This document shows, piece by piece, positions 1 through 35,734 of a stretch of DNA of 64,000 bases. The notes under the pieces are model-generated. The model had not been told where the DNA came from, did no database searches, and saw nothing but the letters and a program-made list of their open reading frames with translations. The first letter of the stretch is position 1. Each line of letters opens with the position of its first letter. The DNA is from Styela clava (Eukaryota > Chordata > Ascidiacea > Stolidobranchia > Styelidae), in assembly GCF_964204865.1 (NCBI RefSeq), contig NC_135260.1, forward strand, positions 7,812,001-7,876,000. Direction: 5' to 3'. The position numbers and the translations under genes were made by a program.

Positions 1-583
1 ATATATGCTTGTCCGAGTTTTATGAACCTTGGTTGTGCGTCACTCCATTTTTGGAAAAGTTTTATATCTGTAAGTATTTGAAATCTAAGATACGCACATA
101 CGAGTATGTTGTTACTTGAAAGAAAGCTATTTGAGCAGGCCAGTAATCGTTTTAGCTCGTAAACAAGGTAATAACCACAATAATAAAGAAACACTCAGCG
201 TCCTCGCTGAGAATTTCTCGCTATGAACCCGCTCTTTTGTTTCCTGAATATTTAGCGTTCTACGCCATCTGAAGCGGCATGTTTGGATTTGTCTGAAAGC
301 TTACGTAATTGTCTAATTCAAGAGACTTTGTTGTCGAGTCAGTTTCGCTTGAATTGATCACACCGATGAACAATACAAAACCTTTTTCAAAAAAATTTTT
401 TTCTCCCATTTACAACGCGCACGGTTAAGCGAATATCGCACGCATCAAAAGACACAACTGGCATAAAGCGGCAAAATACCGCTTTCCGATGAAATTAAAC
501 TGAAGGTTCTCGCACGTTCGAACAAAAAGTTATGACATTTTTCAGGAGGGGTATACAAAATTCTCCAGCCAGAAAGGTTAGAT
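1..583. other. Unique flank left of the palindrome; no gene seen
   Basis: This AT-rich stretch lies outside the left arm of the palindrome. I see no exon with credible splice sites and no repeat that recurs elsewhere in the window. If the left receptor copy is a full gene, its next exon would lie here or further left on the minus strand, but no cysteine-rich open exon is visible in these bases. Confidence 0.5.
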
Positions 584-953
584 TGGGTAATCTTCTAACT
601 GCGAGCAATTCCAATTCCTTTGCGTTGTAAAGGTTATACTTATGCTCGTGCAAAGCGACCAACGCATGCCAAATTATCAAAAACGAAATTTTTTGTGCCT
701 GCGACTGCCAGAAAGCATTTTTTAAATAAAGGTGCGGTCCGCGGTTTCACCCAGTTATTTGTATCTGGTCCTCCCTTATTGAAGGTCGCACCCCTGGTAT
801 ACACAACCGAGTACGTAAGTGAAACTGAACACTTCAGGTCTCGGCGAGTTGTACATTGGGAAAAATTTCACGATTCGTGCAATGGCAATCTACAGGCAAG
901 TGGTATTAAAGATTCAATATATACAAAAGTGATATTCATGTTCTCAACCATAC

Positions 954-3900
954 CTATTGGACAATCGCTTGTGGCGTGGCATTTTTCTTCATCACTAGAA
1001 TCTGCACAATCATCTCTGAAACAAAAATTCATCAGTTGTTTACGTTAACTCGAATGTTTAACGTTTTCTTTTTTATGTCAACTTACCTCCCGTCGCATAT
1101 CGAGGCAGTAATTCGCGAAAGACCCCCGGTCCGTGGAATACATGCAAACTCTTGTCTCAGTCGGTTTTCTGAATCTAGATTTAAAATTATGTAACTAAAC
1201 TGTGAATCTATGACTTTAAATCTTTTTACTCACCCCATGAAAACTTAGCGTGACCGCAAATTGGTGGAATTGCTCTTTTCCTGCAAATACACTCGTCTGA
1301 TGCGTCGGGACAGTTTATTGTGCCATCACATACTTTACCATTAAGTATAATAGTTGGGTGGTTCAAACATCGGAAGCATTTATCGTTGAAAAACTCTATA
1401 ATAAAAACAGAACCGAATATTATGAGAATGCAACATTTCTGCATTTCATCGATAACATGATATTTTACCTGAAAATGTGTTTTTTTCCTTCGAGCAGAGA
1501 CACTCGTCTTCTCCTGAAATTGTTCACACAATGGATATAATTTCTCGTGACTGTATTATTTATATATATGTAAGCTTACAAACAACATGGCATTTTTTTG
1601 GATAGATTAGGATTTACATATTTATCCCGGGAGAGAGGAAAACCAATAGGATAACTTAATCATATGGCGAACCACGGCCACTTGTCCAGTTACCAGTCCA
1701 TGTTGGGTATGGGATCAGTTATTTGTTTTCAGATGTATTGACTTTTATTATTAAGGTCTACAGCTATAGAAAAAGCAGCATATTTTGTCATTTTATACAT
1801 TTACATTCATAATAATATATTCAATCAAGAAATCGGTGAGTGCATAGACACAATATATGTGCATAAGTTAAGATTGAAGCATAATAGCGGTTACTGCGCA
1901 AGCGAAGGCGCATTGTGCTAAGTCATTCCCCCAGCAAACCCCCCCCCCCCCCCCCCTGATTATCCTGCGCGGTTTCGCAGGTTCGAATCCCGCGAGATGA
2001 TAATATGTGAGCAGATCGCTGGTCGCCGTAGAATGTTTCACGTAATCGCTGGTCGGTTACGACTTCTCTGTCATCAAGCCCTTGCATCTGAAACGAATAA
2101 CTGGCTAACTAATCGGACGAGAGTCTGTGGTGCGACATATGGTTAAATACTTCGAATATAAAAAGTTTTCTATTTTTGTTTGGATTGAGGGAAGACAACC
2201 ACGCGGTTATTCTTAGATGTTTTTGACGTTTTTTTTTAACTTTTACCTTTCAGATACATATCATTCAGAGTAATTGGTTTAACGTGCGGTATGACTTACT
2301 GGGCTAACTGAATGTCTGTTTTGATGTCATAAATCTCAACTTCAGAGGCCGCGCAGTTGCTTTTTATTATCACACTATATAATCATTCAGCAACCTAATA
2401 TGTGATTCGCAGAACATCGGTCGAAAATCACTCATTCAGTTAAAGAATTACCTCCAATACAATCGAACTTTCCGTCACATATATTTTGTTCAGGAATCAG
2501 GCATTCAGAATTTTCTCCAATCATAGTTATGCAAAACAACCCGCCCTGTGTCTCATTGTATTGTTCCGTGGTTCCTATTTCGTCGCTTCCATCTCTTGTA
2601 ATCAGGTAATCAAAATACTTTAATTCATTTTATGACATTTTTTTTTTCATAATGGAGATATTGAACTGATACGAATAAACTGAAAACGACAATGCATCAA
2701 AGTGGTAGAAATTACACAAATATATATGGTAAAATTACAGAACAAACAGACAGACGCAATCAAAGTTTCAGCCAATGCGTCTCATGTTTCATTGATTCCA
2801 TTCGTAAGAATCGTCTTTAGGATATTACGAATATCTTACAGACGGTTAGAGTCACCGATTCGGTTCACGCAGGCCCGATTATGGAGGTACGTGTATAAAT
2901 AGGAGGCGAATCTACGGCTGGGCATTTTCGTATACCTCATAATTTCATGATTTCGATTATTTTTATGAGTCGAATCTAGCATACATGGGAAAATTTTAAT
3001 TGTATCTCCAGGTAATAAATTACTGAAGACATAGAATTTATCAGACAGAAAGTTTGCTGAGTGTTTACACAAAATAAGAAACATGTTGCATCAATAACTC
3101 ACTGGAAAGGAAACAGTAATTTGTCAGTATATATTGTATTGTGAAAACATGGCTTCAATAAATTAAATTGAGGGATTCTTTTCGAGAATTGAAGAACAAT
3201 GGAAAACAAGATTACCATGATTCGAAATTTTCGTCTGAACCGATTCTAATAATTTAATATTTGATTCGAATATTCGATTCGAAATACCCAGCTCTAGACA
3301 TAGCTCGATTGCCGATTAAACATTTATGTAATGGAATTATTCTATCATTATTATATATATCGTTGAATATTATCTTTTTTACCAAATACTTACGCGCAAT
3401 CTTTCACTCCATCACACAGTTGGTAATGATTGTAACAACCTGAACCATCGTTACATTTGAACCGATGGATGCATGCTGCTTCCGGCGTAGTTGACTCTGT
3501 TGTGGGAAAGAATAAAGCTATCATGAAACAGAAGGAATATCAAAACAGAAATACTAAAAATGAAGCGGCTAAGTAGTCTTCATTGGAACAAAATATTTAT
3601 TTTACTATTTACTATTTATAGCCAGTCTTTCGAATCTCCAATAAAATAACATTATTTTATTTTAAGATATTTTAATTTAGAACAGGGCTTAATGCGATTC
3701 GAATAAATATTTACCTAAAATAACTGCATACATAATGGTAGTTATAAAATAGGAACTGGAAAAAAGTTCTCGTGTAGATTGACAAAATCTGATTATAAAA
3801 TCTGATGGACGGGATGCATGTCTTATTGGGCGCGAAGTGGACCTACAGATCGTTTTGCTATTATTTTTTTGTTAGAATTCTTTTTCCTGTTGTTACAAAA

Positions 3901-4757
3901 AATTCGATTTTCTTTGTAACTGCTTGACTAACTGCTTTGCAATTTTCAGTAGTTAATGATTGCTGTTGTAACGTAGCAGTGATTTTTGAATGACGTAGTC
4001 AGGTGGGGGTCGGGAATGACACATGTAAATATTATTACGCCACGCCCGCTAGAAGTACTTGTGGTACGAAACTACACGGATATAAGGTAGCCGTTCTATA
4101 GTTTCGACCTCCCCTCGGAATATTATATTATTTGAGAGATTTATTATTTCCTACTAATGGGAACATGATTTTTGAGTGCCGAGTCGGCTTCGATTTTGCA
4201 AAATCTTGCGACGCGGAAGTCGAAAGTTTTTCGATAACGGTGACGCACAGTAGGTAGGTAAGTTACTGTAAAAGCTAAAGTACTTTAAATTAATCAATGC
4301 TATACTTGTGAGTTGAATAATTTAAAATCTCATTTCACGTTGGCGCAAGACACATAAATCAACGCTGGTAAAGCTGGGCAGTCCGGGTTCCGGTACTAGT
4401 AAGTGACAATAGTCGGTACTCCCGTATAGTGTGTGTACCTGGTTAGGATTGTGCCATAATTTTATTCCGATTTTTCTTATTTTAGTTCTATTACGAGTTC
4501 GGGAACTGTCTGTTGGCCAAGTGAATATACCCCCTGCCCATAGTCTTCCGTCCCTTTACATAATTCGGTGTAAAGTAGGCTAACAAAATTAGATATCTCC
4601 GTATCGGTACACACACCATGTTAGTTCCAGTAGCCTACTATTGATAGTTTTGTTTCAATATTGACTTACTCCTTCGTGATGCTCGCACCAAATGTACTAG
4701 AAAAATATCGCACATAAACAGAATAGTCAATGTCCAAATTATATCCAGTTTCTTCAT
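954..4757 (-). CDS. LDLa-module receptor, 5' partial copy (left palindrome arm)
   Basis: Seven minus-strand exons mirror the first seven of the right-hand receptor, with identical lengths: 4757-4670 (signal peptide), 3496-3394, 2594-2452, 1513-1469, 1395-1234, 1174-1087 and 1015-954. All have usable GT/AG sites and open frame. They encode a hydrophobic leader starting MKKLDIIWTL, then LDLa modules with the Cys pattern and acidic D-x-S-D-E ends (for example DGSDE, DASDE, DSSDE). The last exon reads RDDCADSSDEEKCH then TSDCPI, where the right copy reads AKRGCPK. No eighth exon or 7TM part is visible before the window edge, so this is either a paralogue continuing off the window, a truncated duplicate, or a misassembled second haplotype. 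There are no frameshifts or stops, so I do not call it a pseudogene. Confidence 0.7.
1606..1760 (-). repeat. tRNA-SINE tail fragment (left arm)
   Basis: Reverse complement of the SINE 3' body: cues are the segment reading CATATGGCGAACCACGGCC and the start of the tail near TAGGATTTACATATTTATCC. It is mirrored at 13570-13735, so it predates the palindrome duplication. Confidence 0.65.
1885..2155 (+). repeat. tRNA-derived SINE head with B-box (left arm)
   Basis: Contains a pol III B-box-like GGTTCGAATCC at 1980-1990 followed by the SINE body seen in other copies (GCAGATCGCTGG, then GCATCTGAAACGAATAACTGG). A poly-C run of about 18 interrupts the tRNA-like head. It is mirrored at 13165-13445. Confidence 0.65.
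2914..3297. mobile_element. Short inverted-repeat element in intron (left-arm copy)
   Basis: Bounded by GGCTGGGCATTTTCGTATAC on one side and its imperfect complement (GAAATACCCAGC) on the other. It is mirrored at 12016-12400 in the right arm, so insertion preceded duplication. No clear target-site duplication was found. Confidence 0.45.
4415..4620 (+). mobile_element. MITE family A copy (left arm)
   Basis: Begins GGTACTCCCGTATAGTGTGT and carries the family body (ATTTTATTCCGATTTT, TAGTTCTATTACGAGTTCGG, TATACCCCCTGCCCATAG). The right terminal repeat is eroded after GTACACACAC. It is mirrored at 10745-10961. Confidence 0.8.
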
Positions 4758-6325
4758 TGTTTTCAGGAAAATATGAATGCCACAAAAACTCCGAATCAGT
4801 TAGAGCAGTATTCTAATATTAAAAGATATTTTCCTCCTTGCCTCGTGAAGATAATATGGTTTGGAGTAAAAGACAAACAAAAATACCTGTTTGAAATAAG
4901 ATCAAAAAGATATTGTGAGGTCATCATACTGATTTAGATCACTATATTCTCCTTTAAACAGATTTGAATGAATATGAATGGCGTCTTAACACCTTTGTCA
5001 AGCTTCTATCACTTGCACTACTGATGCCATCTGCAGTAAACTTACTTTGCACCATACTCAGTGCACCTTGTACCCGTTGTTTTACATGTCATAATTTTTC
5101 TCAATTGTGTGTCTCACTTGCACTACATATATCTACTAAATGTACGCCATGAAAATTAAAGAATTTTTTCTAACATTTTCTATATAAGACAAATAAATGA
5201 ATGTTCCCCATTTTTTTTTTCAAATTTCCTATATAAGAGAATTAAATGAATGTTCCGCAATTTTTCTATAACAAGCCTATAATAAAGCATCGCCATCGAT
5301 TCGTATTGACGTTGCCAAATCCTGACCAACGCTTCCAGGAGGAACTAAGATGCGCGACCGTGACCGAATGAAGGAGGAAAATGTTACACAATTTTATATG
5401 CAGACTGTGCATGTTGGGTTGATCACGTAAATGACATTCTTTTTTTACGCACAGCGTAGTAAATATCATTGGATATATAATAGATTTTTTTGTATTTTCA
5501 AAAATATTTAGTATTCAATATTTAAGCTTATTTTTATTAATTGTGGACATTCCTAACAACACTGAAAATATTTAACATATATTAGAAAAAGATAAAATTG
5601 AAAAAAATAAAATTAGGGTTCGCCGCAAATGTCTCATTCTTCCTCCTTCAACTTACCCAGTCAAAAATAGTCACCGTTTTATAAAACTGCTCAGGCCTCT
5701 TCCATTATTATATCACGATTCAGCGAAATCGGTTTTCCAACATACTCGGTTTATTTCTGTATCAAGAAGTTCATATGTTAAAATCAATTTTACGAAATAA
5801 AAGAAAAAATTATTGCACTCACATGAAAGCGCATTATTTCATGTCTGAGAACTTCAAACAAACGATTTGAGCAAATTCAAGAACTATTTTATTTTATTTT
5901 TAGACATGTGTTTCGTGGTAGAATTTCTAAATTGCCAAGTGAAACTGTTGTTTTTTATTTCTTGTTTTGTTTTTTCAGCTAAGTGATGGCAATAAAACTG
6001 TTCCAGCGTAATAAAACGACATTATCGAAATTGCGGAAGACACATATTAAAGCATATTATATATATAGTTCTTGTCAGTGAAATTGCAAACAAAAAACTT
6101 GAGAAGTATTTCATCTTATTTCTCTTTTTCTGGAAAGCTATAAATATAACGGAAATGAATGAACACGCTATATCATTATAATAACACAGGGTTACTCTAA
6201 CTGAGTATCCGGATCCACTATGTTGCCATAAAGGGGTTCTCTGCGGTGCATGAGCAAAGACATTCGCTAGCTACCATTCGCGATGACTACATGACATGAC
6301 TAAATTGACTGTGAATTATTTAATT

Positions 6326-6535
6326 AGGCTTCCCGCTGCTTGTCAGCAGGGAACCTATTGTATTCCTGTGTTTTATTATTATTATTATTTATTTATTATT
6401 ATTATTTTTTCAAATTGGTCCTACAAACTTGAAATTCACCTCAAATGTGCAGAAGTTCTCAGCTAGCAATAAAATGCAAATTTTTTTTTACGCGGGAAGC
6501 CTGTTAAAGCTGCACGCAGCTCTAGTTCTTTGATT
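6326..6535. mobile_element. MITE-like insertion present only in the left arm
   Basis: The left arm runs GTGAATTATTTAATT, then this insert, then TTCTTTGATTGAAATGC. The right arm (about 8995-9030, read in reverse) joins the two flanks directly. The insert begins AGGCTTCCCGC and contains its complement near 6491-6502, with an ATT-rich stretch between. This marks an event after the arms separated. Confidence 0.7.
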
Positions 6536-7089
6536 GAAATGCATCTATTTTTCTCATTGGTTGAATTTTTCTTATCAAACGAACGAATAAAATAATCAAT
6601 GGAAATAAGATAAAAAAGCAAAACTACACATTTCATAACAGCAAAAAGGAGGACACTGATACGCAAAGTTTAAAAATAAGTAAAATAGCATATCGTAACA
6701 ATGTTTTAGAATTGGCATATTGTTGTATCATACTGACTTTATTTTTTAAAAACCTTTTAATAGTATTAACTATTTTATAGGAAAAAAAGAAATAAACCAA
6801 ATTTCGAAGCGGAGTAAACTTTATCTAATTTTCTTGACTATTTAAATACAATGCAAGTTTTTACGAATTGAAATTTTTTTATACAAAACAGGAACATGTT
6901 CCCACCAAATGTTTACAAAAAGAGTCTGATACGTCTGATAATAAGCTTCAGTACACTTTTTGCAGACTTGAACTTAATTCATTATCTTAGTTGGGTTCAT
7001 GCGCTTGTATTTTTGTAAAATGCAAAAGTCGGTTTGCTCATATTGTATTAGTTTCGTATATATTTACAAAAAATTAAATGCTGGATATA

Positions 7090-8448
7090 CAGTAATACCT
7101 CGGTAGTCGAACGAAACGATACTCGAACAACCCGGCAGTCGACAAAAAAATCCTATGCTGTGGTATTCAAAAATGCTGTGGTATTCGAACGGAAATTCGG
7201 TGTCAAATCTTGACTACTTTTAAATATCGCTTTCTAAATTATTTGCTGAAAAACTAACTTCCACGGTGGCGAATGCGTAAGTTTCATCTATGAAAGCATT
7301 CATGTTTTCGAACAAATATTCAGACAATAAGTCGTCTCGAGAAACTCCATTTTAATTTTTCATTTCACTTAACGTTTATATACCGCCATATTATGTTGAA
7401 TGCAATTTTCTTTATGAGCTTTACAAATTTCCACAATTTAAAACAATAAAATGGAACACTTTTTTGAAATGATAGACATTATGTTATTATATTACATTAA
7501 TATATATATATATATATATATATTACTCCAATTACCTCAAATGAACTCAGTTCAACACCACAGACCGGAACACCCATAAATGCTAAACAAATAAGATCAT
7601 CACGATAACGCAGTTTTTCGTCCGTTTTTGATACATTCTCTATGTCAATATCCATCCTGTTATCCCTTTACATACAGCCGCGGACCGCAATATGTATAAT
7701 AGTTCACTTTTTGGGGAACCGCCTGGACACCTAATAATTCAATATATGTGAAACTAGTATTTCACATATATTGAATTACGGACCGCTTAATTACATTTTT
7801 CCACCTCTAAAACGTTTTCTGCAATAATAGTTGTCTAAGCGGTTTCCCAAAAATTTAACTATACATGTCCTATTGCGGTCCGCGGCTCTAGTAATAAAAG
7901 GACAGCAGGATGGATATTGACATAGAGAATGTATCAAAAACGGCCGAAAAACTGCGTTACCGTGATGAACTTATTAGTTTAGCATTTTATGGGTGTTCCA
8001 TATGAGTCTGTGGTGTTGAACTGAGTTCATTTGAGGTAATTTGAGTAATATATATATATAATAATGTGAGATAATAACATAACGTCTATCATTTCAAAAA
8101 AAGTGTTTCATTTTATTGTTTTAAACTGGGGAAATTTGTAAAGGTCAAAAAGAAAATTGCATTCAACACAATAAGGCGGTATATAAACGTTAAGTGAAAT
8201 GAAAAAGTAAAATGGAGTTTTTCGAGACGACTTATTGTCTGAATATTTGATCGAAAACATGAATGCTTCCATAGATGCAACTTACGCATTCGCCACCGTG
8301 GAAGTTAGTTTTTCAGCAAATAATTTAGAAAGCGATAATTAGACACCGAATTTCCGTTTGAGTACCACAGCATTTTTGACTATTGGACTTTTTTGTCGAC
8401 TGCCGAGTTGTTCGAGTATCAATTCGTTCGACTACCGAGGTATTACTG
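7090..8448. mobile_element. Fold-back pogo/Tigger-like element at palindrome centre
   Basis: Both ends carry CAGTAATACCTCGGTAGTCG in inverted orientation, flanked by TA on each side. TA target duplication and CAGTR..ACCTCGG ends are typical of pogo/Tigger-type Tc1-mariner elements. No transposase reading frame is visible. The interior is itself an inverted repeat around 7757, so the element looks like one terminus plus interior copied in mirror image. Confidence 0.65.
7735..7778. repeat. Perfect short hairpin at the palindrome axis
   Basis: A 19-base stem, TAATTCAATATATGTGAAA at 7735-7753, is exactly complementary to 7760-7778 across a 6-base loop (CTAGTA). This is the symmetry axis of the whole 14-kb palindrome. 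Confidence 0.9.
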
Positions 8449-10527
8449 TATATCCAGCATTTAATTTTTTGTAAATATATACGAAACTAATACAATATGA
8501 TCAAACCGACTTTTGCATTTTACAAAAATACAAGCGCATGGACCCAACTAAGATAATGAATTAAGTTCAAGTCTGCAAAAAGTGTAATGAAGCTTATTAT
8601 CAGACCTATCAGACTCTTTTAGTAAACATTTGGTGGGAACATGTTCCTGTTTTGTATAAAAGTTTTTCAATTCGTAAAACTTGCATTGTATTCAAATAGT
8701 CAAGAAAATTAGATGAAGTTTATTCCGCTTCGAAATTTGGTTTATTTCTTTTTTTCCAATAGAATAGTTAATACAATTAAAAAGGTTTTTAAAAAATAAA
8801 GTCAGTCTACTGCAATATGCCAATTCTAAAACACTGTTAGGATATGCTATTTCACTGGATTTTAAACTTTGCGTATCAGTGTCCTCCTTTTTGCTTGTTA
8901 TAAAATGTGTAGTTTTGCTTTTTTATCTTATTTCCATTGATTATTTTATTCGTTCGTTTGATAAGAAAAATTCTACCAATAAGAAAAATAGATGCATTTC
9001 AATCAAAGAATTAAATAATTCACAGTCAATTTAGTCATGTAATGCAGTCATCGCGAAGGGTAGCTAGCGAATGTCTTTGCCCATGAACCGCAGAGAACCC
9101 CTTTATGGCAACATAGTGGATTCGAGTACTCAGTTTGAATAACCCTGTGTTATTATAATGATATAGCGTGTTCATTCATTTCCGTTATATTTTTATAGCT
9201 TTCCATAAAAAGAGAAATTAGCTGAAATACTTCTCAAATTTTTTTTTTTTTGCAATTTCATCGACAAGAACTAATATGCTTTAATATGTGTCTTCCGCAA
9301 TTTTGATAATGTCGTTTTATTACGCTGGAACAGCACTATTATTACCAGCACTTAGCTAAAAAAAAATAAAAAAAATAAAAAACAATAGTTTCACTTGGCA
9401 ATTTAGAAATTCCACCACAATACACATGTCTACAAATAAAATAAAATAGTTCTTGAATTTGCTCAAATCGTTTGTTTGAAGTTCTCAGACATGAAATAAT
9501 GCGCTTGCATGTGAGTGCAATTATTTTTCTTTTATTTCGTAAAATTAATTTTAACATATGAACTTCTTGATACAGAAATATACCGAGTATGTTAGAAAAT
9601 CGATTTCGCTGAATTGTGATATTTTAATGGAAGAGGCCTGAGCAGTTTTAAAAAACGGTGACTATTTTTGACTGGGTAAGTTGAATGAGGGAGGAAGAGA
9701 CATTCGCGGCGAACCATAATTTTATCTTTTTGAATTTTATCTTTTTCTAATATATGTTAAATTTTTTCAGTGTTGTTGGGAATGCCCACAATATATAAAA
9801 ATAAACTTAAATATTAAATACTAAATGTTTTTGAAAATACAAAAAAAAATCGTGAATCTATTCTATATCCAATCATATTTACTACGCTGTGCGTAAAAAA
9901 ATAATGTCCTTTACGTGATCAACCCAACATGCACTGTCTGCAAAAAAGATTGTGTAACATTTTCCTTCTTAATTTGGTCACGGTCGCGCATCTTAGTTCT
10001 TTTCGGAAGCGTTGGGCAGAATTTGGCAAAGTCAATATGAACGGTCGTGATGCTTTATTATAGGCTTATTATAGAAAAATTGCGGAACATTCAGGTAATA
10101 CTATTATATAGGAAATATCAGAAAACATGCTTTTTATGAAATACATTTAGTAGAAAACTGAATGATCTATGTGGTGCAAAAGGGACACACAATTGAGAAA
10201 AATTATGACATGTAAAACAAGAGGTACAAGATGCACAAGTGGTGGGTGAAAGGTGCGAAGTAAGTTTACTGCATATGGCATCAGTGGTGTAAGCGATAGA
10301 AGCGTGACAATAGTGTTAAGACGCCACTTCAGCCACTACATATTCATTCAAATCTGCTCAAAGGAGAATATAGTGATCTAAATCAGTATGATAACCTCAC
10401 AATATCTTTTTGGTCTTATTTCAAACAGGTATTTTTGTTTGGAGAAAAGGAGGAAAATATCTTTTAATATTAGAATACTGCTCTAACTGATTCGGAGTTT
10501 TTGTGACATTCATATTTTTCTGAAAAA

Positions 10528-13500
10528 ATGAAGAAACTGGATATAATTTGGACATTGACTATTCTGTTTATGTGCGATATTTTTCTAGTACATTTGGTGC
10601 GAGCATCACGAAGGAGTGAGTCAATATTGAAACGAAACTATCAATAATAGACTACTAGAACTTACATGGACAAATTAATTCAAAACTAAATTTTTTACCC
10701 ACGTTTTCCCCATATTCCGGATAAGGCTGAACCTGTGGAATATTGGGCGCTCCAGACGTGTGTGTACCAATATGGAGATATCTAATTTTGTTCGCCTACT
10801 TTACATCAAATTCTGTAAAAGAACGGAAGCCTATATGGGCAGGGGGAAAATCCACTTGACTAACACAGACAGTTCCCGAACTCGTAATAGAACTAAAATA
10901 GGGAAAATCGGAATAAAATTGTGGCACAATCCTAACCAGGTACACACACTACGGGAGTGCCGACTATTGTCGCTTACTAGTACCGGAACCCGGACTGCCC
11001 AGCTTTACCAACGTTGATTTATGTGTCTTGCGCCAACGTGAAATGAGATTTTGAATTATTCAACTCACAAGTGTACCATTAATTAATTTAAAGTACTTTA
11101 GCTTTTACAGTAACATACCTACCTACAAGCAAAATCGAAGCCGTTGCACTTGGCACCTAAAATCTTGTTCCCATTGATCGGAAATAATAAATCTCTCAAA
11201 TAATACTTTACTTTGGGAACTTTAGAACGGCTACCGTATATCAGTGTAGTTTCGTACCACAAGTACTTCTAGCGGGCGTGGCGTAATAATATTTACATGT
11301 GCCCCCCCCCCCCCTGACTAGGCCATTCAAAAATCACTGCTACGTCACAACAGCAGTCATTAACTACTGAAAATTGCAAAGCAGTGAGTCAAGCAGTTAA
11401 AAAGAAAATCAATTTTTTCGTAACAACAGGAAAAAGAATTCTAACAACAATATAATAGCAAAACGATCTGTAGGTCCACTTCGCGCTCAATAATACATGC
11501 ATTCCGTCCATCAGATATTATAATCAGCTTTTGTCAATCTACACAAGAACTTTTTTCCAGTTCCTATTTTATAACTACCATTTTGTATGCAGTTATTTTA
11601 GGTAAATATTTATTCGAATCGCATTAAGCCCTGTTCTAAATTAAAATATCTTAAAATAAAATAATGTTATTTTATTGGAGATTCGAAAGACTGGCTATAA
11701 ATAGAAAATAGTAAAATAAAAATTTTGTTCCAATGAAGACTACTTAGCCGTTTCATTTTCAGTATTTCTGTTTTGATATTCCTTCTGTTTCATGATAGCT
11801 TCATTCTTTCCCACAACAGAGTCAACTACGCCGGAAGCAGCATGCATCCATCGGTTCAAATGTAACGATGGTTCAGGTTGTTACAACTTTTACCAACTGT
11901 GTGATGGAGTGAAAGATTGCGCGTAAGTATTTGGTAAAAAAGATATTATTCAACGATATAATAATGATAGAAGAATTCCATTACATAAAATGTTTAATCG
12001 GCAATCGAGCTTCGTCTAGAGCTGGGTATTTCGAATCGAATATTCGAATCAAATATTAAATTATTAGAATCGGTTCAGACGAAAATTCCGAATCATGGTA
12101 ATTTTGTTTTCCATTATTCTTCAATTCGCGGAAAGAATCCCTCAATTTTATTTATTGAAGCCATATTTTCACAATACAATACTGACAAATTACTGTTTCC
12201 TTTCCAGTGAGTTATTGATGCAACATGTTTCTTATTATGTGTAAACACTCAGCAAACTTTCTGTCTGATAAATTCTATGTCTTCAGTAATTTATTACCTG
12301 GAGATACAACTAAAATTTTCCCATGTATGCTAGATTCGACTCAAAAAAATAATCGAAATCATGAAATTATGAGGTATACGAAAATGCCCAGCCGTAGATT
12401 CGCCTGCTGTTTATACACGTACCTCCATAATCGGGCCTGCGTGAACCGAATCGGTGACTCTAACATTCGTAATATCCTAAAGGCGATTCTTACGAATGGA
12501 ATCAATGAAACATGAGACGCATTGGCTGGAACTTTGATTGCGGCTGTCTGTTTGTTCTGTAATATTACCATATATATTTGTGTAATTTCTACCACTTTGA
12601 TGCATTGTCGTTTTCAGTTTATTCGTATCTGCTCAATATCTTCATTATGAAAATAAAAATGTTGTGACGTCATAAAATGAATTAAAGTATTTCGATTACT
12701 TGTTTACAAGGGATGGAAGCGACGAAATAGAAACCACAGAACAATACAATGAAACGCAGGGCGGTTTGTTTTGCATAACTATGATTGGAAAAATTACTAA
12801 ATGCCTGATTCCTAAACAAAATATATGTGACGGAAAGGTCGATTGTATTGAAGGTAATTCTTTAACTAAATGAGTGATTTTCAACCGGTGTTTTGCGGAT
12901 CACATATTAGGTTGCTCAGTGATCCTATTGTGTGATAATAAAAAACAACTGCGCGGCCTCTGAAGTTGAGATTTATGACATCATAACAGACATTCAGTTA
13001 GTCCAGTAAGTCATACCGCACGTTATATCAATTACTCTGAATGATATGTATTTGAAAGGTAAAAATTAAAAAACGCGAAAAACATCTCAAGAATAACCAC
13101 GTATTTGTCTTTCCTCAATCCAAACAAAAATGGAAAACTTGTTATATTCGAAGAATTCAACCATATGTCGCACCACAGACTCTCGTCCGAATAGTTAGCC
13201 AGTTATTCGTTTCAGATGCAAGGGCTTGATGCCAGAGAAGTCGTAACCGACCAGCGATTACGTAAAACATTCTAAGGTGATCCGCTCCATGTGAGCGATC
13301 TGCTCACATATTAGCATCCCGCGGGATTCGAACCTGCGAAACCGCGCAGGGTGATCAGGGGGGACTTAGCACAATGAGCCGCGCATGACTTCGCTTGCGC
13401 CGTAACCGCTATTATGCTTCGATCTTAACTTATGCACAGATATTGTGTGTATGCAATCACCGATTTCTTGATTTAATATATTATGAATGTAAATATATAA

Positions 13501-16500
13501 AATGACAAAATATGCTTCTTTGTTGAAGTTTTCGTATTTTTCGTCCCTATAGGTGTTGACTTTATTCATACAAGTCAATGCATCTGAAAACAAATAACTG
13601 GCTAACTTATCCCATACCCGCCATGGACTGGTAACTGGACAAGTGGCCGTGGTTCGCCATGATATGATTAAGCTGTTCTATCGGCTTTCATCTCTCCGGG
13701 ATAAATATGTAAATCCTACCCTATCCAAAAGAATGCCCTTGTTCGTAAGTTTACATATATATAAATAATACATTCGCGAGAAATTATATCCATTGTGTGA
13801 ACAATTTCAGGAGAAGACGAGTGTCTCTGCTCGAAGGGAAAAAACACATTTCCAGGTAAAATATAATGCTATCGATGAAATGCAGAAATGTTGCATTCTC
13901 ATAATATTCGATTCTGTTTTTATTTTAGAGTTATTCAACGATAAATGCTTCCGATGTTTGAACCACCCAACAATTATAATTAATGGTAAAGTATGTGATG
14001 GCACAATAGACTGTCCCGACGCATCAGACGAGTGTATTTGCAGGAAAAGAGCGATTCCACCAATTTGCGGTCACGCTAAGTTTTCATGGGGTGAGTAGAA
14101 AGATTTAAGCTCAAAGATTCACAGTTTAGTTACATAATTTTAAATCTAGATCCAGAAAACCGACTGAGACAAGAGTTTGCATGTGTTCCACGGACCGGAG
14201 GTCTTTCGCGAATTACTGCCTCGATTTGCGACGGGAGGTAAGTTGATATAAAAAAGGAAACGTTAAACATTCGAGTTAACGTAAACAACTGATAAAATTT
14301 TGTTTCAGAGATGATTGTGCAGATTCTAGTGATGAACAAAAATGCCACGCTAAACGCGGTTGTCCAAAAGGTATGGTTGAGAATATAAATATCACTTTTG
14401 TATATATGTATATTGAATCTTTAATACCACTTGCCCGTAGATTGCCATCGTGAAATTTTTCCCAATGTACAACTCACCGAGACCTGAAGCGTTCAGTTTC
14501 ATTTTTGTACAAGAAACGGTTGTGCATACCAGGGGTGCGACCTTCAATACGGGAGGACCGGATACAAATAACTGGGTGAAACCGCGGGCCTCACCTTTAT
14601 TTAACAAATACTTTCTAGTAGTCGCATGCACAAAATTTTTTGTTATTGATCATTTGACATGCGTTGGTCGCTTTGCGCGAGCACAAGTATAACCTTTACA
14701 GCGCAAAGGAATTGGAATTGCTCGCACGTAGAAGATTAAACTAGATCAAAAACTCGTTTCGCGGGCCGCACACCATTCAAAATTGACACTTCTCCGCGGG
14801 CCGCACAATCTTTCCTTGTGGGTCGCAAGTTGCACACCCCTGTACACTGTATACCATTGATTTATGAAAACGATTAAATACCAATTGGCATGGGGCTTGA
14901 ATAAAAATTTCAAATATCATAAGTTCAATGCAAATGTTGATAAACATAAATCGCACGAAATATTAAAGTACGGTACTAAATGATCAGTTGAAATTGGTTC
15001 GATGACGTTGCTCGCAGGTAAAATACTTTCTGGATATGTACAAACTTAATAACTTTCTATGAATATAGTAGACTCTGGGGTGGGCAAGGTTTTTGGATCA
15101 GGGGTAAGTAAGTTCGGACCAATGTAAGTGTGACGTAAAAAGATACATTTTATGAACAATATTTACAGTGTTACAAAAGTAAATGCGGAAAACAATAGGC
15201 CTCGTGCCAATAGGCCAAATCTAAATTTAATCGCAATCTCAACAACTTCCTTGAGAATAAACATCAAAATTTGGTTTTAGTTGGGATTGTGACAGGCCGA
15301 GTTTGGCCCGCGGGCCGTAATTTGTTCATGTCAGTAAGTAGATTCTCGTGAATAAATCGATTTGATTTTAATAAATAATTGATTTTAAATGTACCAATTT
15401 AAATGTGTCTATCATAAGCTCATATTTCATGGTCTTCCAAGAATCTGTTTTTAAATATTGTATCTAGTATATAAAAATGTCAAATACATGAATTTTAAAA
15501 CACGTTTTCCCTCATTTGCCCTAACAAGGTTTTGCTATTTGTAGAAGTGCCGTTTATCCACCACTTCACACACCAATCAATATGCAAAATTATTTGTGTT
15601 TTTTTAGGTTTAGGGAACAACCGCTCACCGGATGAAAAATGCGGTTTCAAATGTCCTAACGAACGTGAGTCTTTATACTTTTCACGAGGATTTTTTCCAT
15701 TGTTAAATACATATATTATTGTACTGACTACTGGACCATCTATTTTTGTCAATTGCATATCCAAATTTCATCCGTGGTGCGGGTTGTGCTAAAAAATCAA
15801 TTTTTTTACCAAAACATTCGCCCCAACAACAACAAGACTAATAATACCAGCTTTTCAACAAATCGATCCATATACCCACTTTGTAGTCGATAACTTTGGT
15901 GAAAAAATCGGCCAAGAAACAAAAGGAGGAGAGGGATCATTCGTAGAAAGTTTCCCGCCACTAATGCAAAAAGAGTTGAGTAAAATATCCCCGCCGCGTT
16001 TTAAGTACTGTGGATTGCGCCCCCCTCATTTTAAGTAATGGCGCGTTCGCCTATCTAACCCTGACATCGCTGAATTCCACCAATGAATGAAAATTGTAAC
16101 TGAACGATTACTCTTTTGAATTTGAGAGGTGGCGGGGCTGTTTTTTGGTCGGGCGTTCTGCAAAATATCCGAGAAGAGTGTAAAACATGACAGTTTATTT
16201 TGGGCAGCCCTGATTGTTTTTGCTGATTGTTGTGTTTGCATGGCATATTCTGTTTAGTCATGTTTTGACCACAATCTATTTCTGGTAATGGGATATAAAT
16301 GTAATTTCAGCGAAATGGTCAACAAGATGTGACGGAATTCCTCTCTGCACCGAATTCCGATATGAAGAATGTGAGGGATGTCCGAACAAACCTCAATTCT
16401 GTGTTAATATTGAGTAATATTATTTAGTAATTAGGAAAATGAATCAGTTTTTACTTTGTATTTCTATTCAAATTTGTAATTGTGAAGTTAACCAGTAAAA

Positions 16501-19500
16501 CAACACGAACTCATATTTCGGTACTCCCGTTTTGTGTGTACCAGTTTAGGGTTAGACCATAATTTTATTCCGATTTTACTTATTTTAGTTCTATTACGCG
16601 CTTGGGGACTGTCTGTATTAGCCAAGTGAATATATCCCCTGCCCATAGGTTTCAGTCGCTTTACACAACTTGATAAAGTAAGCGAACAAAATTAGTTATC
16701 TCCATATTAGTACACACACTTCTGGAGCGCCGACAAATTAGTAATATTACGTAGTAATTATTAAAATGAATCAGTTTGTATTATTATTCAAATTTGTAAT
16801 TGTAAAGTTAACCAGTAAAATAACACGCACTCATATTTCTGCCGTCCAGTTAATCTTGTTCAATAATTTTATCAGGGATAGTAGAGAAGACAAGTTTAAA
16901 TGTAGGGAATGTGATGAGAAGCACTACATGGATGGTCCATGGATCGAATGTAACCGAATCGATGATATATTGCTTGGCTCCAAGATTTGTAACGGATATA
17001 GAGATTGCATAAAAACTAAAACTACCAAAACTAACGACGAGTTGAATTGCACAAAAAGGTAATTGTATGCTCACCTAAATTTGTTCAAAAATATGACAAA
17101 AAGGATGCTAAGGATGCTTTAAACAACAACTAAAAACTTATTAGTTTGGAAGCAAACTTGAACCCGTCGTGCTATATAGTTTATAACTTATAGTATCTTT
17201 TTGTCACAGTTCCTCTTGGAAAATGTTGTTGATCTTTCCCAATACATCAGTTGCTAATTTCTATCATATGTTGTACAGATCATTCTTTTCAATTACATTT
17301 CATTACCTCTTTACCAAGTCTTTTTGGTACTCCCGTAGTGTGTGTACCAGATTACAGTTAGATCATAATTTTATTCCGATTTTCCTTATTTTAGTTCTAT
17401 TACGAGTCTGTGTTAGCCAAGTAAATATACCTCCTGCCCATAGGTTTCTGTCCCTTTACACAACTTTATGTGAAGTAGGCGAACAATATGAGACACCTCC
17501 ATATTGGTGCCCATACTTCTGGAGCGCCGTCTTTTTTTATCAAAACTTTTATTTTTCTCCATTTTTCTCTATAGTAATAATTTGAAGATTTTTGTAAATA
17601 AAAATTACTGGAGCTTTGTAGAAAGGATAACCCAATATGCCGTTTATTATGAAATGTAATATACAGCATATTTGAGCATAATGATTGAATGCGATCGAAT
17701 TCTATCAAAATTAGCAAACATAATCTCATTCAGATTTTACTGTAAAAGCGGATTACCGATCAACATTCCCGATTCAAAACTATGTGACACGATTCAGGTA
17801 GGATTCCTATATCGTCCTTTATTAGTATCATTATCTATATAAAAAGAATATTCTCAATTTAAACATTTAATAAGTGACTCTTTTTCTGTATTAACGTTAA
17901 TTAATATTAATGTATCTATCACAATAAAATTGTGGAGAGAAAAATAATCAACTGGAAAATTACGTAAATATAGAATAACTGTAAAGGCTGTAAAATATGC
18001 CCACACTAAAAAAAGAAAAACTTCGGAAAATTAAAAAAATTGTAAGGATAAATATAAACTATTGCTAATAAATTTCATTAAAAGACTAATAAAATTGGAA
18101 TCGCATTTTCGTATGCGGAAAGTAGAAGTATTTTATTCATAATATGAAATTGAAAGAAATCTGGGAAAACAAATCCAAAATATTGAAAAAAATAAAATTT
18201 TATTTTAAATTTATTTTCTACATACTTCTTCCATTCGTATACGATACAATTGTGTAGTGTAGTAAAATATTGGTACTCCTTTTTATCACGAGTTCGGGGA
18301 CTGTCTGTGTTAGCTAAGTGGTGAATATCCCCTTGCCCATAGATTTCAATTCCTTTACACAACTTAATATAAAAATAGGCGAACAAAATTCGTTATCTCC
18401 GTATTGGCACACATACTTCTGGAGCGTCAATTAATTAATTAGTAATATTTGATTTTTCAGGATTGTGATGACGATAGCGATGAAATGTACTGTACTGACG
18501 AAACACATTTTTATTGCGAAGATGGCGGGAAAGTGTTATACATAAACAGAAATAAGGTTCGAATCATTTCTAAAGTTAATGACTCGTGATCGGAACGATC
18601 TGAATAGCAACTTTGTTTAATATTTCTTAAGCGGCAACTTCAATTTGTGATGAAGCTTGCAATACCAATAAAGATATATCGATTTTAAAAATAAATTTGA
18701 AATAACATCGAAAATATGAATGCTTTTGATACTCTAAAATAGAATTATTATAATGCACAGATCCAAATATATTTATAAAAAAGAAAATTATTCAATCTCA
18801 TTTTATTGCATTATGCTTTCTTTGAATGTATTGGATTATTGGTACTCCCGAAATATGTGAACTAAGATGGCGGACAACGGAACGTAGTATGTGTACCAGG
18901 TTAGGGTTAGGCAATTATTTTGGGTACAAATACTACGGGTGTCACTTGCCTAATCCCCGAACTCGTAATAGAACTAAATTAAGAAAAATTGGAATAAAAT
19001 TATGGCCCAACTATAACCTGGTACACATATTACGTTCCGTTGTCCGCCATCTTGGTTCACATACTTCGGGAGTACCGGATAATTTCCGACTCAATTTAGG
19101 CTTGTGATGGGGCCAAGGACTGTACCAGCGGGAAAGATGAAGTGAAATGTCGTCAGGAATGCACAAACAGCGTTTTTTCAAACGAAAAATATATGATTGA
19201 AAATAAATACTTTTTGATAGCAGCATGGATAATTAGTAAGTACTTTTCATGATCAATATGATTTTAATGCTATTTTGTGTGTTATTACAAGCAGGAAATT
19301 TTTGCCGCATTGAAAATCGTCGCAAGAGCCGTTTTATTGTAAATCAAGTATTTGTGATAAAAACAGTTAGGTTTTTGAAGTACTTTTTTATTTAAAATAA
19401 GATACGTTATTCAAGAGCATACCCTAACCTTATAAATATAACTGTTTTCGAACTGTTATCACAAATAGTTGTTTTAAAGCAAAATGCTCTTGCGACGATT

Positions 19501-22500
19501 TTTCCTAGGCAGCGAAATTTCCTGAGGCGCGATTTTCTACGGCGAATACTGCGGAATCCGGACACTTACAAACACAACTTCAATTGCAATAAGAGTGAAA
19601 ATATAGAGAGTGGAAATATTTAAAATAGTTTATTTCTATATTCATCCAGGTATATCAGCTGTTGTAGGAAATATTCTTGTCATCATCTGTTCTGTTCATG
19701 ATTTTTTCTGTCGCCGGGGGAGACCAAAAGGAAACGAACGAAAAAATAAATTGCTGTTGTTGAACCTTTCAATTTCTGATCTATTAGTTGGGGTAAGCAT
19801 GTGTTTCTTAAAGTCGAAGCTATATTTTATTTATTATAAGAAATGTTATGCGCTCTGCGATATAGTGAATTGTGCTAAGGCTAAGCGTTAGGAGTACGCT
19901 TGCTATCGCACCTCGGATTACCCTGTGTGGTTTTGAATATCGTGAAGGGTAATTATGTGCAAGAGGATTTCTGGACTTCTCACTGCCGTAGAGTGGTTAC
20001 GGCTTCTCCCACCATCGAGTCCATGCATTTGGCTAAGTAATCCATTACTCAACATTGAATGGTAACCGGACCAGAGGCCGTAGTATGTCATATGATTAAG
20101 TCGTCATATCGACCTTCTTCTCCCCCGGAATACATTTGAAAATTCTATCTTCATAACTTTTCCGATTTTCATGCTTATCAGATATACAACCTTTCTATCT
20201 GCATCCAATCTCTTCTATCTTCCGGTCATTACTGCCAAGAGGACCAGGAATGGCGAAGTGGAATAACTTGTTCAGCTCTGGGAGTTATTTTAGTCATCGG
20301 TTCAGAATCGTCAGTTTTTACATTAATTTTGCTTAGTTCTTTCAGAGCAAGATCAATATCAAAGTAAGTCAGATTTGATACAATTTCGGGCGCTCAAGAA
20401 GTGTGCGTACCAATATGGAGGTAATTCATTTTGTTCGTCTACTTTACATCAAGCTGTGTAAAGGGACATAAGCCTGCTATGGGCAGGGGGTATATTCACT
20501 TGGGTAACACAGACAGTCCCCGAACTCGAAATAGAACTAAAATAAGGAAAATCAGAAAAAAATATAGCCTAACCTTAACCTGGTACACACACTACGGGAG
20601 TACCCAATTTGGTAATAGAATATAGGAGATTTTAGTTGTGATCATTCGTCTTTAATTCAAAAGGCAACGTTGGTGTTTTATATTAAATTTTAAATGTTAA
20701 TAAAAGCAGCATAAGAGAAACTTAGTTATACCATGAGCAAGAAAAGTTGGCTGGTTGTTAGATTTTTCGGATACGGGTTACGGGCTTTCGTAACCGTTCG
20801 ATGACTATACTATTTGAATCGCATGAAAACTCATTTTTGCAAAAGTGAAATCATGTTTTGAAGCTTTCGAAGAAACGAACTATGCGAAACCAAAATACCG
20901 AAGATAAATACCGGTTTGTTTTTGTTCATGTTTTCTTGTTAATTATAAAACAATCTTCAACTTTGCAGATCATTCGAGAGATTTCCACTGAATTGGTTCT
21001 TCAAAATTATAGCATTATCTTGGATTACTTCAATCATCCTTGCCTTATTTCCGCTACTCCCCTTTGCAGTTTTTGAAGATTATTTCATTGATAGTGTCAG
21101 GTACGTGTGGTGTGGCGGACTTTATTATTGCGTCATTCATTTTATTGCGGAAGTGCTGCTGTAGTAGAATATAATTACTATAATTTGTTTATTTCTTTGG
21201 TATTCATATTATGTTTTCATAATATATACTCAGCTAATCCCATACCCGATATGAAGTGGTAACCGGACGAGGGGCATTGGTTCGTCATATGAATAAGCCG
21301 CCTTATCGGCTTTCCTCTTTCTCGGAATATATATATATATATATATATATATGTAAATCCTATCCTATCTTTTTCCTACTCTGGTCTAAGCCAGTAGTCA
21401 ATTTATGAAAATGTTCACGAATAGAAATTCCGTATTCGAAACGATATATCCAGGTCGTCTGAAATCTCATTTTATAACTCTATTCTCATTATTGATAACT
21501 GTTTTTCACATCCTATAGGACTAGTTGACTTCCCCTATAAATTATATAGAGTTTTGGAATGAAAGATGTATTTGATTTATTCCAAATGCGAATTAGAGTA
21601 GAAAAGATTTATATACATACCAATTCATGTCATGATTTACAACGACTAGACTGCGAGTGAAAAATCTATCCCATTCTTATATTTAATAGCTTAATACAAA
21701 CGAACTATGTTTTCTTGGTTACAGGTTTGCTGCCAATCCGTTTTTTGCAACTGTCAAAAGTACTGAAGTTGATGAACTGAACAATTGGTTTCTCGTGACA
21801 GGAATTATCAACACTAATAATTCCACGTAAACGATTTTACATTTTAACATCCATTTACCATCGTTATCCTTAAATCAAATTAGATCAATTGATGTAAATT
21901 GTCGTCAATTGAAGGAGACGTAACCATCTAATGAGTGTAAATTTAAACATATCAATGGGTGAAAATGGAACATTTACATTACCGCGTTTCCCCAAAAATA
22001 AGACGTGGTCTTATTTCAATTTCTGTCAAAAAATAACACTGGGGCTTATTTTCGGGGGATGTCTTTTATTTTCATTATTTTAAAACATAATTACAAAGTT
22101 AAAGAATTACGAGATTTTCAAATACACAACCTATGAAAACCGATATAAGTTTACTTATAAATAACACGTTTTTATTTTAAAAAAAGCTGCTAAACATAGA
22201 TTATTCAAAAATGACCATATCATCATCCATTGGAAAATCTCGCAAGTCACTAAATTCATAAATTTTGAATGAAGATTTCATTGAACTGAATTTTCTGGCA
22301 AATTTTTGAATCTAAAGTTTTATGTCGAGCTATAAAGGCCTCATTGAATGAGAATTTCCTATCTAGGTAGACCGATTTCAGTGCGTTGTTAATTAACACA
22401 GCCGTCTGTGATTTTGTTCCACGAATTTGCCACCCAAGTTAAAATCTCGACTAGATCTTATTCTATGGGGAGGTCTTATTATTAAAATCATTTTTAAAAT

Positions 22501-25054: not shown

Positions 25055-26348
25055 CGGTGATATAGTGGAACTGTCCCACGAGAATGCCGCAAACCAGTTG
25101 CAACAAAAGAGAATACATATTCACTTTTGATATGAATTTTTTTTCCACCTTGATACAAAAAAGACGTAGGAAATATGTTGATAAAATTGCACAACTTCAC
25201 AGGCATTGTTTTAATCATTTCTTGGTTGATACGGATTTAAATTTGATTTGTAAGCTATGCTTTTGTTTGAGTACATATATAAATGTCAAAACACCAATGC
25301 AAATAATGTAGCATTGTCATTTAAAAACTTTATATCATATTATTAAATAAATTTTTACTCGAAATAACTTGATATTAGAAATTATCGGCGGATGGTAAAG
25401 TTTACGGCTTTTTTTGTATAAACATCTCATGAAATAAATATTCGGGTATTAACGTAATTACATTCGTGCATTAATATTAATAATCTAAACTATTTGTTTG
25501 GATTCTAAATTTGATTGTGTAATAATTTCAATATAGCTTCCATGCATATAATTCGCAGCTAGTTGGTAAAATTTGATTCACGATGGTTTTTTTTCATATA
25601 TACCTATTTTTTGACATTTGTAGATATTAGTTGATGCGTCTCAAAAATAATAAAGACATTTCTCTTGGAAAGTTTATACCTTTTTTACAAGAACAATTTA
25701 TTCTTGTGCGATCCAAATTAGATGTAGATAAGCGTAAAAAAACGTTTACACGATGTTTTTGTAATATTCGACGTTTGATCACGTTCATTGCTAGTAACGT
25801 CATTGGAGCTTTTAATCATCTATTTGGTGTCTTTAAACATTAAGTTATTAACTATAGTTTACTTTTTCATTCACACCTTGCAAGCATATTTAGCATTAAT
25901 AAAAAGCACAAAAGACACTTTGTATTTTCTTTCGAAAATGATGTCAAAATCGTACTTTAAACTAGCTTTGGTGCAACCACCGACTACACATTCCCTAGGC
26001 ATTTCGAGAGACTTTATACTGGAATAGATAAAATTCCAGTTTTATATCAGCTTAAGATCAAGCTTATTTCAAAACCACAATTTTTCAATTCCTCAGTACT
26101 GTAGTTTGCAATAGCCAGGGATGACAATCCTTGCCCCCACTACTCGAGAATGTGAAATTAGCAACCATGAGGTAGCGTGAGAACGAGCAGACCATGCTAA
26201 GCCAGAAGGACAATCTTTTTGTTTCGTCTTAGCTGTTCACAAATCAGGTTAAAGAGTTGAATATTTTGAGCAGACGTTTTAACAGAATTTACCCCTTTTG
26301 ATAAATCGGTTTAAGCGCAATAACCTCCACGATGGGATCCCTCCAGGC
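25055..26348. other. Receptor 3' flank
   Basis: Contains the probable 3' UTR, with AATAAA at 25346-25351. AT-rich beyond that. Short open frames at 25631-26027 lack family resemblance or splice context, and I call no gene here. Confidence 0.5.
25346..25351 (+). terminator. Candidate polyadenylation signal of the LDLa receptor
   Basis: AATAAA about 290 bases after the proposed stop codon at 25052-25054. A second AATAAA-containing site occurs near 25434. Confidence 0.45.
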
Positions 26349-29300: not shown

Positions 29301-29402
29301 CTCATCACAAAAGAATTTTTTCAAAGCAAGAAGGGAGGGGAGGAGCAAAGTTTGTAAAAATTGTCAAAGGGGGGCGCGGCTCAAAACGTTTAAGAATCAC
29401 TG
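26349..29402. mobile_element. ~3.05-kb nonautonomous hAT element
   Basis: Ends CAGTGGTTCTTAGACTGGGG and, complemented, CAGTGATTCTTAAACGTTTT, both followed by GGCGCG-type sequence. Flanks CTCCAGGC (26341-26348) and CTCTAGGC (29403-29410) match at 7 of 8, the expected hAT 8-base duplication. No transposase frame survives. It contains a nested inverted-repeat element (27706-28549) and another hAT terminus reading TTTGGACCACCCTG near 29147. Confidence 0.8.
27706..28549. mobile_element. Nested ~844-bp inverted-repeat element inside the hAT
   Basis: About 45 bases at each end are inverted copies: left CGTCACGCTAATAACCGAAT then TGCGTAAGTCATTTTTGGC; right is the complement. Ends sit in TATA-rich sequence, so the exact target duplication cannot be read. 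No coding capacity is recognised. Confidence 0.7.
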
Positions 29403-29937
29403 CTCTAGGCTAAGGGTGAATATGTGCATCGCATCTGCACATTCTATGGCGCCACATATGCGAGGAAAAATACGTCAACCCCATCTCAACCAAGAACTCC
29501 CTTTGGTGGCATAAAGAACAGAATGTACTCGCTTACCACCTGAAAGGCCTTCGCGTACCACTGGTTGGGAACTTGTATAGGATTGATACCTTTGATCAGT
29601 TATATGTTTTTGACTTGCTTCAAGAATTATGAATCTACCAAATGTTGTTTGCAGTTGTAATTAAGTTCATTATTGTAGCTGAGATTTAAGCAATCTTTCA
29701 ACATTGAGTTTCGACTTCATTTGGACTGTTAAATATTGTAGATGTGCGGGTGGATTTTTGCAAATTTCAACTCAGAATACAATAGTATGGGGCAAAAGGC
29801 TACTCGGTAAACTAGAAGTTGAAAATTTGTATCCTGAATCTCCAATAGTACCGGTAACTGGTGCGGTTTAGCAGCGAGATATCATAATATTGAAAGGATA
29901 GGCAGGCGTGGGTCAGGAGATGGTCATGCTCGAGAAA

Positions 29938-30110
29938 TGAAAACAGTGTTACCGAAAATGAATGTCCGAGCAACGATTTCCGTGTTTATTTCCGCAACAA
30001 ATACAAGTCAGCAATAGATCATCAATGACGTAACAATTGGATTTGATGGCGTTGCTCGGACAGATAAACACTACTCTTTTTGCCTTTCGGTAGTGCTGCG
30101 TGTTAGTCGT
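29938..30110. mobile_element. Short MITE with TACCGAAA ends
   Basis: CAGTGTTACCGAAAATGAAT..TGTCCGAGCAACG at the left is complementary, imperfectly, to the right end CGTTGCTCGGACA..TTTCGGTAGTGCTG. About 170 bases. No matching flanks found. Confidence 0.55.
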
Positions 30111-35726: not shown

Positions 35727-35734
35727 TATAAATA
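35727..35734 (+). promoter_or_regulatory. Candidate TATA box of the cytokine receptor
   Basis: TATAAATA lies 49 bases upstream of the proposed start codon at 35783, predicting initiation near 35757. An upstream ATG at 35743 with a 10-codon frame would fall before that start and so probably outside the mRNA. Confidence 0.45.

Follow-up and report, generated by a model that had tools for sequence, protein, structure and literature searches.

When two copies of a gene face away from each other across a mirrored stretch of chromosome, the mirror may belong to the animal or to its assembly. This question is raised by a 64,000-nucleotide stretch of the sea squirt Styela clava (C14:7812001-7876000, hereafter the window; assembly of 376,610,584 bases in 379 contigs), in which two copies of a G-protein-coupled receptor (GPCR) gene stand head to head in a palindrome. 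Positions are those of the window, and negative positions lie to the left of its start, in 40 kb of flank taken from the same assembly for arm extension. The evidence points to a very probable germline inverted duplication of ~25 kb, for which hairpin-seeded fold-back is the proposed route and which would have left two complete divergent paralogues in a 50-kb palindrome. What seemed an odd mirror structure is now likely to be a real, old, gene-bearing palindrome.

Extent and divergence of the arms

Self-comparison of the window gives inverted matches at E=0 between 588-4616 and 14738-10758, between 4616-6325 and 10669-9009, and of 6523-9013 onto itself. Global alignment of these core arms (588-7.75 kb against 7.76-14.738 kb) gives an identity of ~93% over aligned columns. 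An initial annotation had described a 14-kb palindrome with edges at 584 and 14741; its inverted arms are real, but the extent is that of the core only, and neither edge is a true end. The palindrome appeared to stop at 588 because the left arm alone carries an insertion of 753 bp (-165..587, with 1..587 inside the window; flank comparison), which together with the window start concealed the continuation. Beyond the core, the arm homology picks up again at -166/14741 and extends to -17,659/32,251. The left arm occupies -17,659..7,753 (C14:7,794,341-7,819,753; minus strand; 1..7753 within the window) and spans 25,413 bp, while the complete right arm occupies 7760..32251 (plus strand) and spans 24,492 bp, giving a whole palindrome of ~50 kb. 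A window edge and a single insertion can thus disguise a 50-kb palindrome as a 14-kb one with half genes.

Over the whole arms, 17 collinear blocks yield 19,623 aligned columns at 92.9% identity with 158 gap events; the stretches between blocks, which are private to one arm, were left out of the identity count. The divergence bears directly on the possibility that the mirror is a library or amplification artefact in which a single molecule folded back on itself. A hairpin does lie at the centre, as such an artefact would have it; the arms, however, would then be identical, whereas 7.1% of aligned columns differ and kilobase stretches are private to one arm. The divergence refutes this explanation, which we regard as having practically no chance of being correct.

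In the non-coding part of the core arms, 428 of 6,041 columns differ (7.1%). Counted in stretches of 200 such columns, these differences are unevenly spread (dispersion index 4.2, a value that 0 of 5000 permutations reach), although one poorly aligned stretch with 43 differences contributes to the high value. Gene conversion increasing towards the centre was rejected, as divergence between the core arms does not change with distance from the centre (r=-0.009). Patchy gene conversion between the arms may have occurred and is compatible with the uneven differences.

Centre of the palindrome

The two arms meet in a hairpin at 7735..7778, which consists of a perfect 19-bp stem and a 6-nt loop, CTAGTA (7754-7759). 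It is the sole inverted repeat in the 64-kb window with a stem of at least 15 and a loop of at most 10, and 20 first-order Markov simulations produced none of that class. The pairing comes from inverted-repeat searches; neither global alignment pairs the whole hairpin. On the right side only, a stretch of ~45-48 bp (7779..7826, boundaries approximate and set by eye) adjoins the hairpin and reflects either a deletion on the left or an insertion on the right.

Two complete receptor genes

Gene models were built from open frames, splice sites and arm-to-arm comparison. The right gene (10528..24802, plus strand) comprises 18 coding exons and 748 modelled residues, with a provisional end after 24802. 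Its exons 1-6 lie at 10528-10615, 11820-11922, 12711-12853, 13929-14090, 14156-14237 and 14309-14370, exons 7-12 at 15608-15664, 16311-16413, 16876-17058, 17734-17797, 18461-18556 and 19100-19235, and exons 13-18 at 19650-19792, 20182-20363, 20969-21100, 23151-23372, 24042-24184 and 24659-24802. The left gene runs on the minus strand; exons 1-6 fall within the window at 954..4757 (4757-4670, 3496-3394, 2594-2452, 1395-1234, 1168-1087 and 1015-954), and exons 7-18 lie outside it at -2740..-12438.

The initial annotation had counted seven exons in both copies. The 14-kb part holds six coding exons, and each complete gene model has 18, all of which are present in both arms; the models are complete rather than 5' fragments. 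Exon-by-exon comparison agrees that neither copy has lost a splice site or its frame, with GT..AG at 17 of 17 introns in each, and the suggested exon difference of about 5% compares with 30 of 640 nucleotides (4.7%) in the six exons. Exon 1 contains an ATG and a signal-like sequence recognized by eye. The modelled proteins, of 748 residues on the right and 747 on the left, are identical at 697 of 749 aligned columns, and in exons 1-6 they differ at 18 of 213 residues (8.5%). When read onward from the last exon, both copies meet a stop at the same codon, and a further 3' coding exon past 24802 is possible. Another exon candidate near 19291-19350, whose frame would be broken on the left, was dropped because the first helix could be rebuilt without it and exon 12 joins exon 13 in phase. 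A truncated left gene acting as a secreted decoy was likewise ruled out by the left flank, which carries the remaining exons.

Both proteins combine LDL-A modules with a seven-helix domain. On the right, Pfam finds LDL-A (PF00057) in five stretches (E=5e-18) and 7tm_1 (E=3e-17); on the left, it finds LDL-A in five stretches (E=5.9e-19) and 7tm_1 also, the two copies scoring 63.4 and 64.5 bits for PF00001 against a cut-off of 30.5. No leucine-rich repeat family was found by Pfam at E<=1 in either modelled protein, a result that small unmodelled exons could escape. Among the 33 PDB sequences matched by the helix sequence, the best is 8w1z (E=2.4e-11), a generically named family-1 receptor; the helices also match RXFP1 (7tmw, E=4e-10), glycoprotein-hormone receptors and LGR4, and beta-adrenergic receptors more weakly. 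In the predicted layout, LDL-A modules precede seven helices of relaxin/LGR-like type and leucine-rich repeats are missing, as in the LDLRR-GPCRs of Ciona.

A distance of 5.77 kb separates the start codons, and the upstream region of each gene is a mirror image of the other. Of five TATA-like matches upstream of the right gene, one lies at 8180..8186 (plus strand); it is mirrored at 7376..7382 (minus strand) by one of the ten such matches upstream of the left gene, and a promoter role for either would be putative. The boxes at 7382 and 8180 share the same surroundings and are 0.8 kb apart. That one mirrored upstream region drives both genes would be a natural expectation from this arrangement rather than a result, and both genes are presumably expressed.

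Constraint on the two copies

The two coding sequences have diverged without losing their frames. Only three coding indels separate them, each of 3 nt, whereas neutral change at the pace of the non-coding columns (155 events per 17,381) would have given 20.0; among all 158 gaps, 38 are multiples of three. If one copy alone were constrained, about half of the expected coding indels would still be predicted. Over the whole coding sequence, non-synonymous divergence (Ka) is 0.030 and synonymous divergence (Ks) 0.062, a Ka/Ks of 0.48 (Fisher P 0.0025). In the ectodomain, Ka is 0.040 and Ks 0.085 (P 0.0078), and in the helices the values are 0.018 and 0.037 (P 0.20). Non-synonymous change in exons 1-6 also falls under the non-coding rate (P 0.004).

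Outside the helices, Ka and Ks are each roughly double. Different selection on ectodomain and helices is unsupported, the Ka/Ks ratios being 0.46 and 0.48, and the clustering of amino-acid changes in exons 1-6 is not significant (P 0.09). The lower Ks in helix exons could reflect local constraint, chance or patchy conversion. Because their frames are open, spliceable and under mild constraint, both copies are probably functional receptors.

Genuine duplication or assembly artefact

In highly polymorphic tunicates, a divergence of ~7% lies within the range seen between alleles. The arms could in principle be two alleles of one gene from a very polymorphic animal that the assembly joined head to head by mistake, a reading that the initial annotation had also offered; the 7% divergence and the many indels would fit tunicate alleles. 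Mis-joined alleles were also frequent in the old Ciona savignyi assembly, but the errors described in the available text of that report placed alleles in tandem, which we read as the same direction (PMC1868934).

At the Styela locus, a mis-join would have required two base-level joins free of N: at the centre, where both alleles would have to break off within 6 nt, and at an outer edge. The 104,000 bases contain no N at all. Allelic homology should also pass -17,659 and 32,251, whereas it stops there. The outer flanks, compared over 21 kb on the left against 32 kb on the right, give no match at E<=1e-5, and they contain a P450-like exon and an Ig/FN3-like receptor, respectively (both named by eye). 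The amino-acid difference in exons 1-6 is high for alleles.

Genome searches with pieces of arm and flank bear on the same point. A query from the arm (3000-4000) has at least 41 genome matches, of which two are full length and both lie in the palindrome, with the best 40 of 1,674 candidates scored; a third close copy of the arm should rank high among these. A query from the flank (42000-43900) has at least 41 matches (best 40 of 1,412 candidates scored), and its single full-length place implies that the assembly holds no second haplotype of this piece. Given unrelated outer flanks, the absence of N, a single-copy flank and two arm places, a genuine duplication is most likely, and the joining of two alleles appears improbable. 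The palindrome would thus be present in the animal rather than in the assembly only. The inverted-duplication reading in the initial annotation, in which divergent genes have upstream regions that mirror each other, is upheld in this respect; what had to be revised is its restriction to the first exons, as the genes are complete and lie in 25-kb arms.

As a variant of this explanation, compatible with it, the duplication could be genuine but carried by only part of the chromosomes in the population. Polymorphism is common among inverted duplications, but the divergence of 7% suggests an old event, and we consider such a polymorphism rather unlikely.

Route of formation

How might the duplication have arisen? 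A short hairpin could have been the seed of a germline inverted duplication of ~25 kb, with fold-back synthesis copying one LDLRR-type GPCR gene into a mirror-image second arm. The outcome would have been two complete paralogues, head to head and transcribed away from the centre, whose arms have diverged and each hold sequence private to one side. As fold-back would have it, the inverted arms are joined at a short interrupted inverted repeat, here the 19-bp stem and 6-nt loop. Following breaks or errors at replication forks, inverted duplications can start from such closely spaced short repeats. In yeast, the seed of a fold-back inverted duplication was an imperfect repeat of 11 bp around a 6-bp spacer, as described in the available part of the report (PMC10622511), and small interrupted inverted repeats are described as seeds in origin-dependent inverted-repeat amplification (ODIRA; available text of PMC4689423).

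Several observations weigh against this reading, some against the route and others against the duplication or its functional copies. The fold-back route would be a fit by shape alone, and the centre is not fully symmetric, as the ~45-48 bp adjoining the hairpin have no counterpart on the other side. Further, junction spacers in human inverted duplications are long, 766-70,466 bp in 21 of 21 sequenced junctions according to the portion of the report available (PMC3907307), unlike the 6 nt in Styela. Those spacers are unduplicated and measure ~0.8-70 kb; the Styela centre offers a 6-nt loop, or ~50-100 bp when the one-sided stretch is counted. The arm divergence of 7% lies within the allelic range of tunicates. 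A Ka/Ks of 0.48 is a mild constraint, and Ka against Ks is not significant in exons 1-6 alone (P 0.068) or in helices alone (P 0.20). Patchy gene conversion could explain the uneven core-arm differences together with a helix-exon Ks that is half that of the ectodomain. Finally, the coding 3' end of both gene models is provisional.

The hairpin at 7735-7778 fits either a seed or a remnant of the innermost arms. A genuine duplication by another route, such as sister-chromatid fusion, seedless template switching or staggered breaks, has a substantial though lesser chance of being correct, and it is compatible with the main claim of a duplication. In its favour, the stem could be the innermost conserved part of the arms rather than a pre-existing seed. 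Staggered-break inversion, however, leaves the duplicates apart and not back to back, and a spacer this close to zero is as well explained by sister fusion as by hairpin capping. Hairpin-seeded fold-back remains the preferred account.

The receptor family and a second inverted duplication

The palindrome belongs to a large receptor family. In protein searches of the genome, the ectodomain gave 68 matches (146 of 146 candidates scored) and the helices at least 144 (121 of 254 candidates scored); several matches can come from one gene, since exons match singly. Family members outside the palindrome reach at most 69% identity in the ectodomain search, so that in that search neither copy has a closer relative than its mirror partner. 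Neighbouring family members in the same direction occur on C2, C13 and C19. Receptor copies cluster at C13:15.53-15.88 Mb, at 7.53/7.61 Mb on C13 and at C19:10.98-11.06 Mb; the C13 (15.5-15.9 Mb) and C19 clusters carry copies on both strands, and the C19 copies lie in single long open frames of ~430-510 codons and are perhaps intronless.

Family members in opposite directions, found by the protein searches, led to a second inverted duplication at C4:18056001-18100000 (44 kb), in which two more LDL-A/helix receptor genes are arranged tail to tail. Two 4.5-kb pieces of it, compared first, are 86% identical over 3.6 kb. The duplication consists of 18 blocks at 72-94% identity around a central spacer of ~5.5 kb, counting blocks longer than 120 bp at E<=1e-15 and leaving out inverted matches of up to 120 bp; it spans to the right end of the 44-kb stretch compared and within 214 bp of its left end. 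It looks older than the palindrome on C14. Such structures thus occur elsewhere in the assembly, which supports a genuine palindrome on C14.

Inverted duplication may be one way in which this large receptor family grows, and the two cases suggest, without proving, that inversion is a common route. A stronger proposal, that inversion is a recurrent engine of the family, with chance hairpins time and again seeding palindromes that yield mirrored pairs (C14, head to head; C4, tail to tail), and that head-to-head pairs share one control region, is tentative and on balance doubtful. If true, receptors with differing LDL-A ectodomains would be co-regulated, or used singly, from one control region. 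Among the open-licence papers listed for Ciona haplotypes, tunicate palindromes or inverted duplications, and gene pairs in inverted or divergent arrangement, none describes this locus or receptor palindromes of this kind.

Sequence private to one arm and other features of the window

Apart from the 753-bp insertion, private sequence includes a ~3.06-kb element in the right arm only (26344..29404; arm comparison). Its ends (CAGTGGTTCTTA.../...AAGAATCACTG) resemble hAT terminal repeats and its near-matching 8-bp flanks, CTCCAGGC and CTCTAGGC, are equal at 7 of 8 positions; we take it to be hAT-like on the basis of this terminal motif. Core alignment places a further 202 bp in the left arm only (6326..6527; left insertion or right deletion) and 89 bp in the right arm only (10669..10757; right insertion or left deletion), and other private stretches of either arm sit between the collinear blocks.

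Repeats are shared as well. One of ~170-220 bp occurs six times in the window part of the arms (4413-4616, 10739-10961, 16517-16731, 17323-17528, 18281-18449 and 20389-20607); as the copies at 4413-4616 and 10739-10961 occupy the same place in both arms, this insertion predates the duplication. A short repeat of ~115 bp lies at 42894-43007, 1602-1715 and 13605-13724, with 40 further scored copies in the genome, mostly at 81-87% identity (best 40 of 1,412 candidates).

Elsewhere in the window, the plus strand carries frames resembling an Ig/FN3 cell-surface receptor (35732-45120, by eye), a pterin carbinolamine dehydratase exon (57523-57777) and pieces of a hAT-type transposase in two open frames (60487-62303; DUF4371 and Dimer_Tnp_hAT). 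On the minus strand are ankyrin repeats near CAP-Gly-like frames (53224-53697; CAP-Gly by eye) and an NXPE4-like C-terminal exon (63612-63998). Searches of window positions 1-8000 against a plasmid collection and of the exon 1-6 protein against a phage collection gave no match, in keeping with an animal source, and Rfam gave none at the gathering threshold.

Comparison with known systems

The host is a tunicate also by its genes: C9 carries a GH6 exon over the cut-off, found in 0 of 14 control genomes, with a cellulose synthase exon (PF03552/PF13632) upstream (C9:16172001-16182000). A cellulose synthase-GH6 fusion is a tunicate marker.

In its shape, the palindrome resembles the inverted duplications of yeast (PMC10622511), ODIRA (PMC4689423) and human (PMC3907307), which, in the parts of these reports available, have head-to-head copies on a short interrupted inverted repeat. 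The Styela case differs in being old, diverged and interstitial, with the distal sequence present, and the human cases differ further in their kilobase spacers. With mammalian sex-chromosome palindromes (PMC6790999), it shares arms of tens of kb with genes in each. The arms described in the available text of that report are kept alike by gene conversion, whereas those of Styela are not highly alike, at 92.9% identity with 158 gap events.

In its genes, the pair has in common one or more LDL-A modules and related seven-helix domains with RXFP1/LGR7 and the snail receptor GRL101, whose leucine-rich repeats, as given in the available text (PMC2396169), were not found in the Styela proteins. The closest likeness is to the LDLRR-GPCRs of Ciona. 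The same text describes 14 Ciona receptors in which N-terminal LDL-A repeats (one, or 2-10) precede helices like those of relaxin/INSL3 receptors, without leucine-rich repeats, and attributes them to a lineage-specific expansion (PMC2396169). The Styela pair likewise has tandem N-terminal LDL-A modules, relaxin/LGR-like rhodopsin-type helices, no leucine-rich repeats and a tunicate host; the likeness is one of domain layout, and the Styela pair differs in forming a head-to-head palindrome. The locus thus offers a natural case, with the hairpin still central, of an inverted duplication old enough for its receptors to have diverged, in a family known to have expanded in sea squirts.

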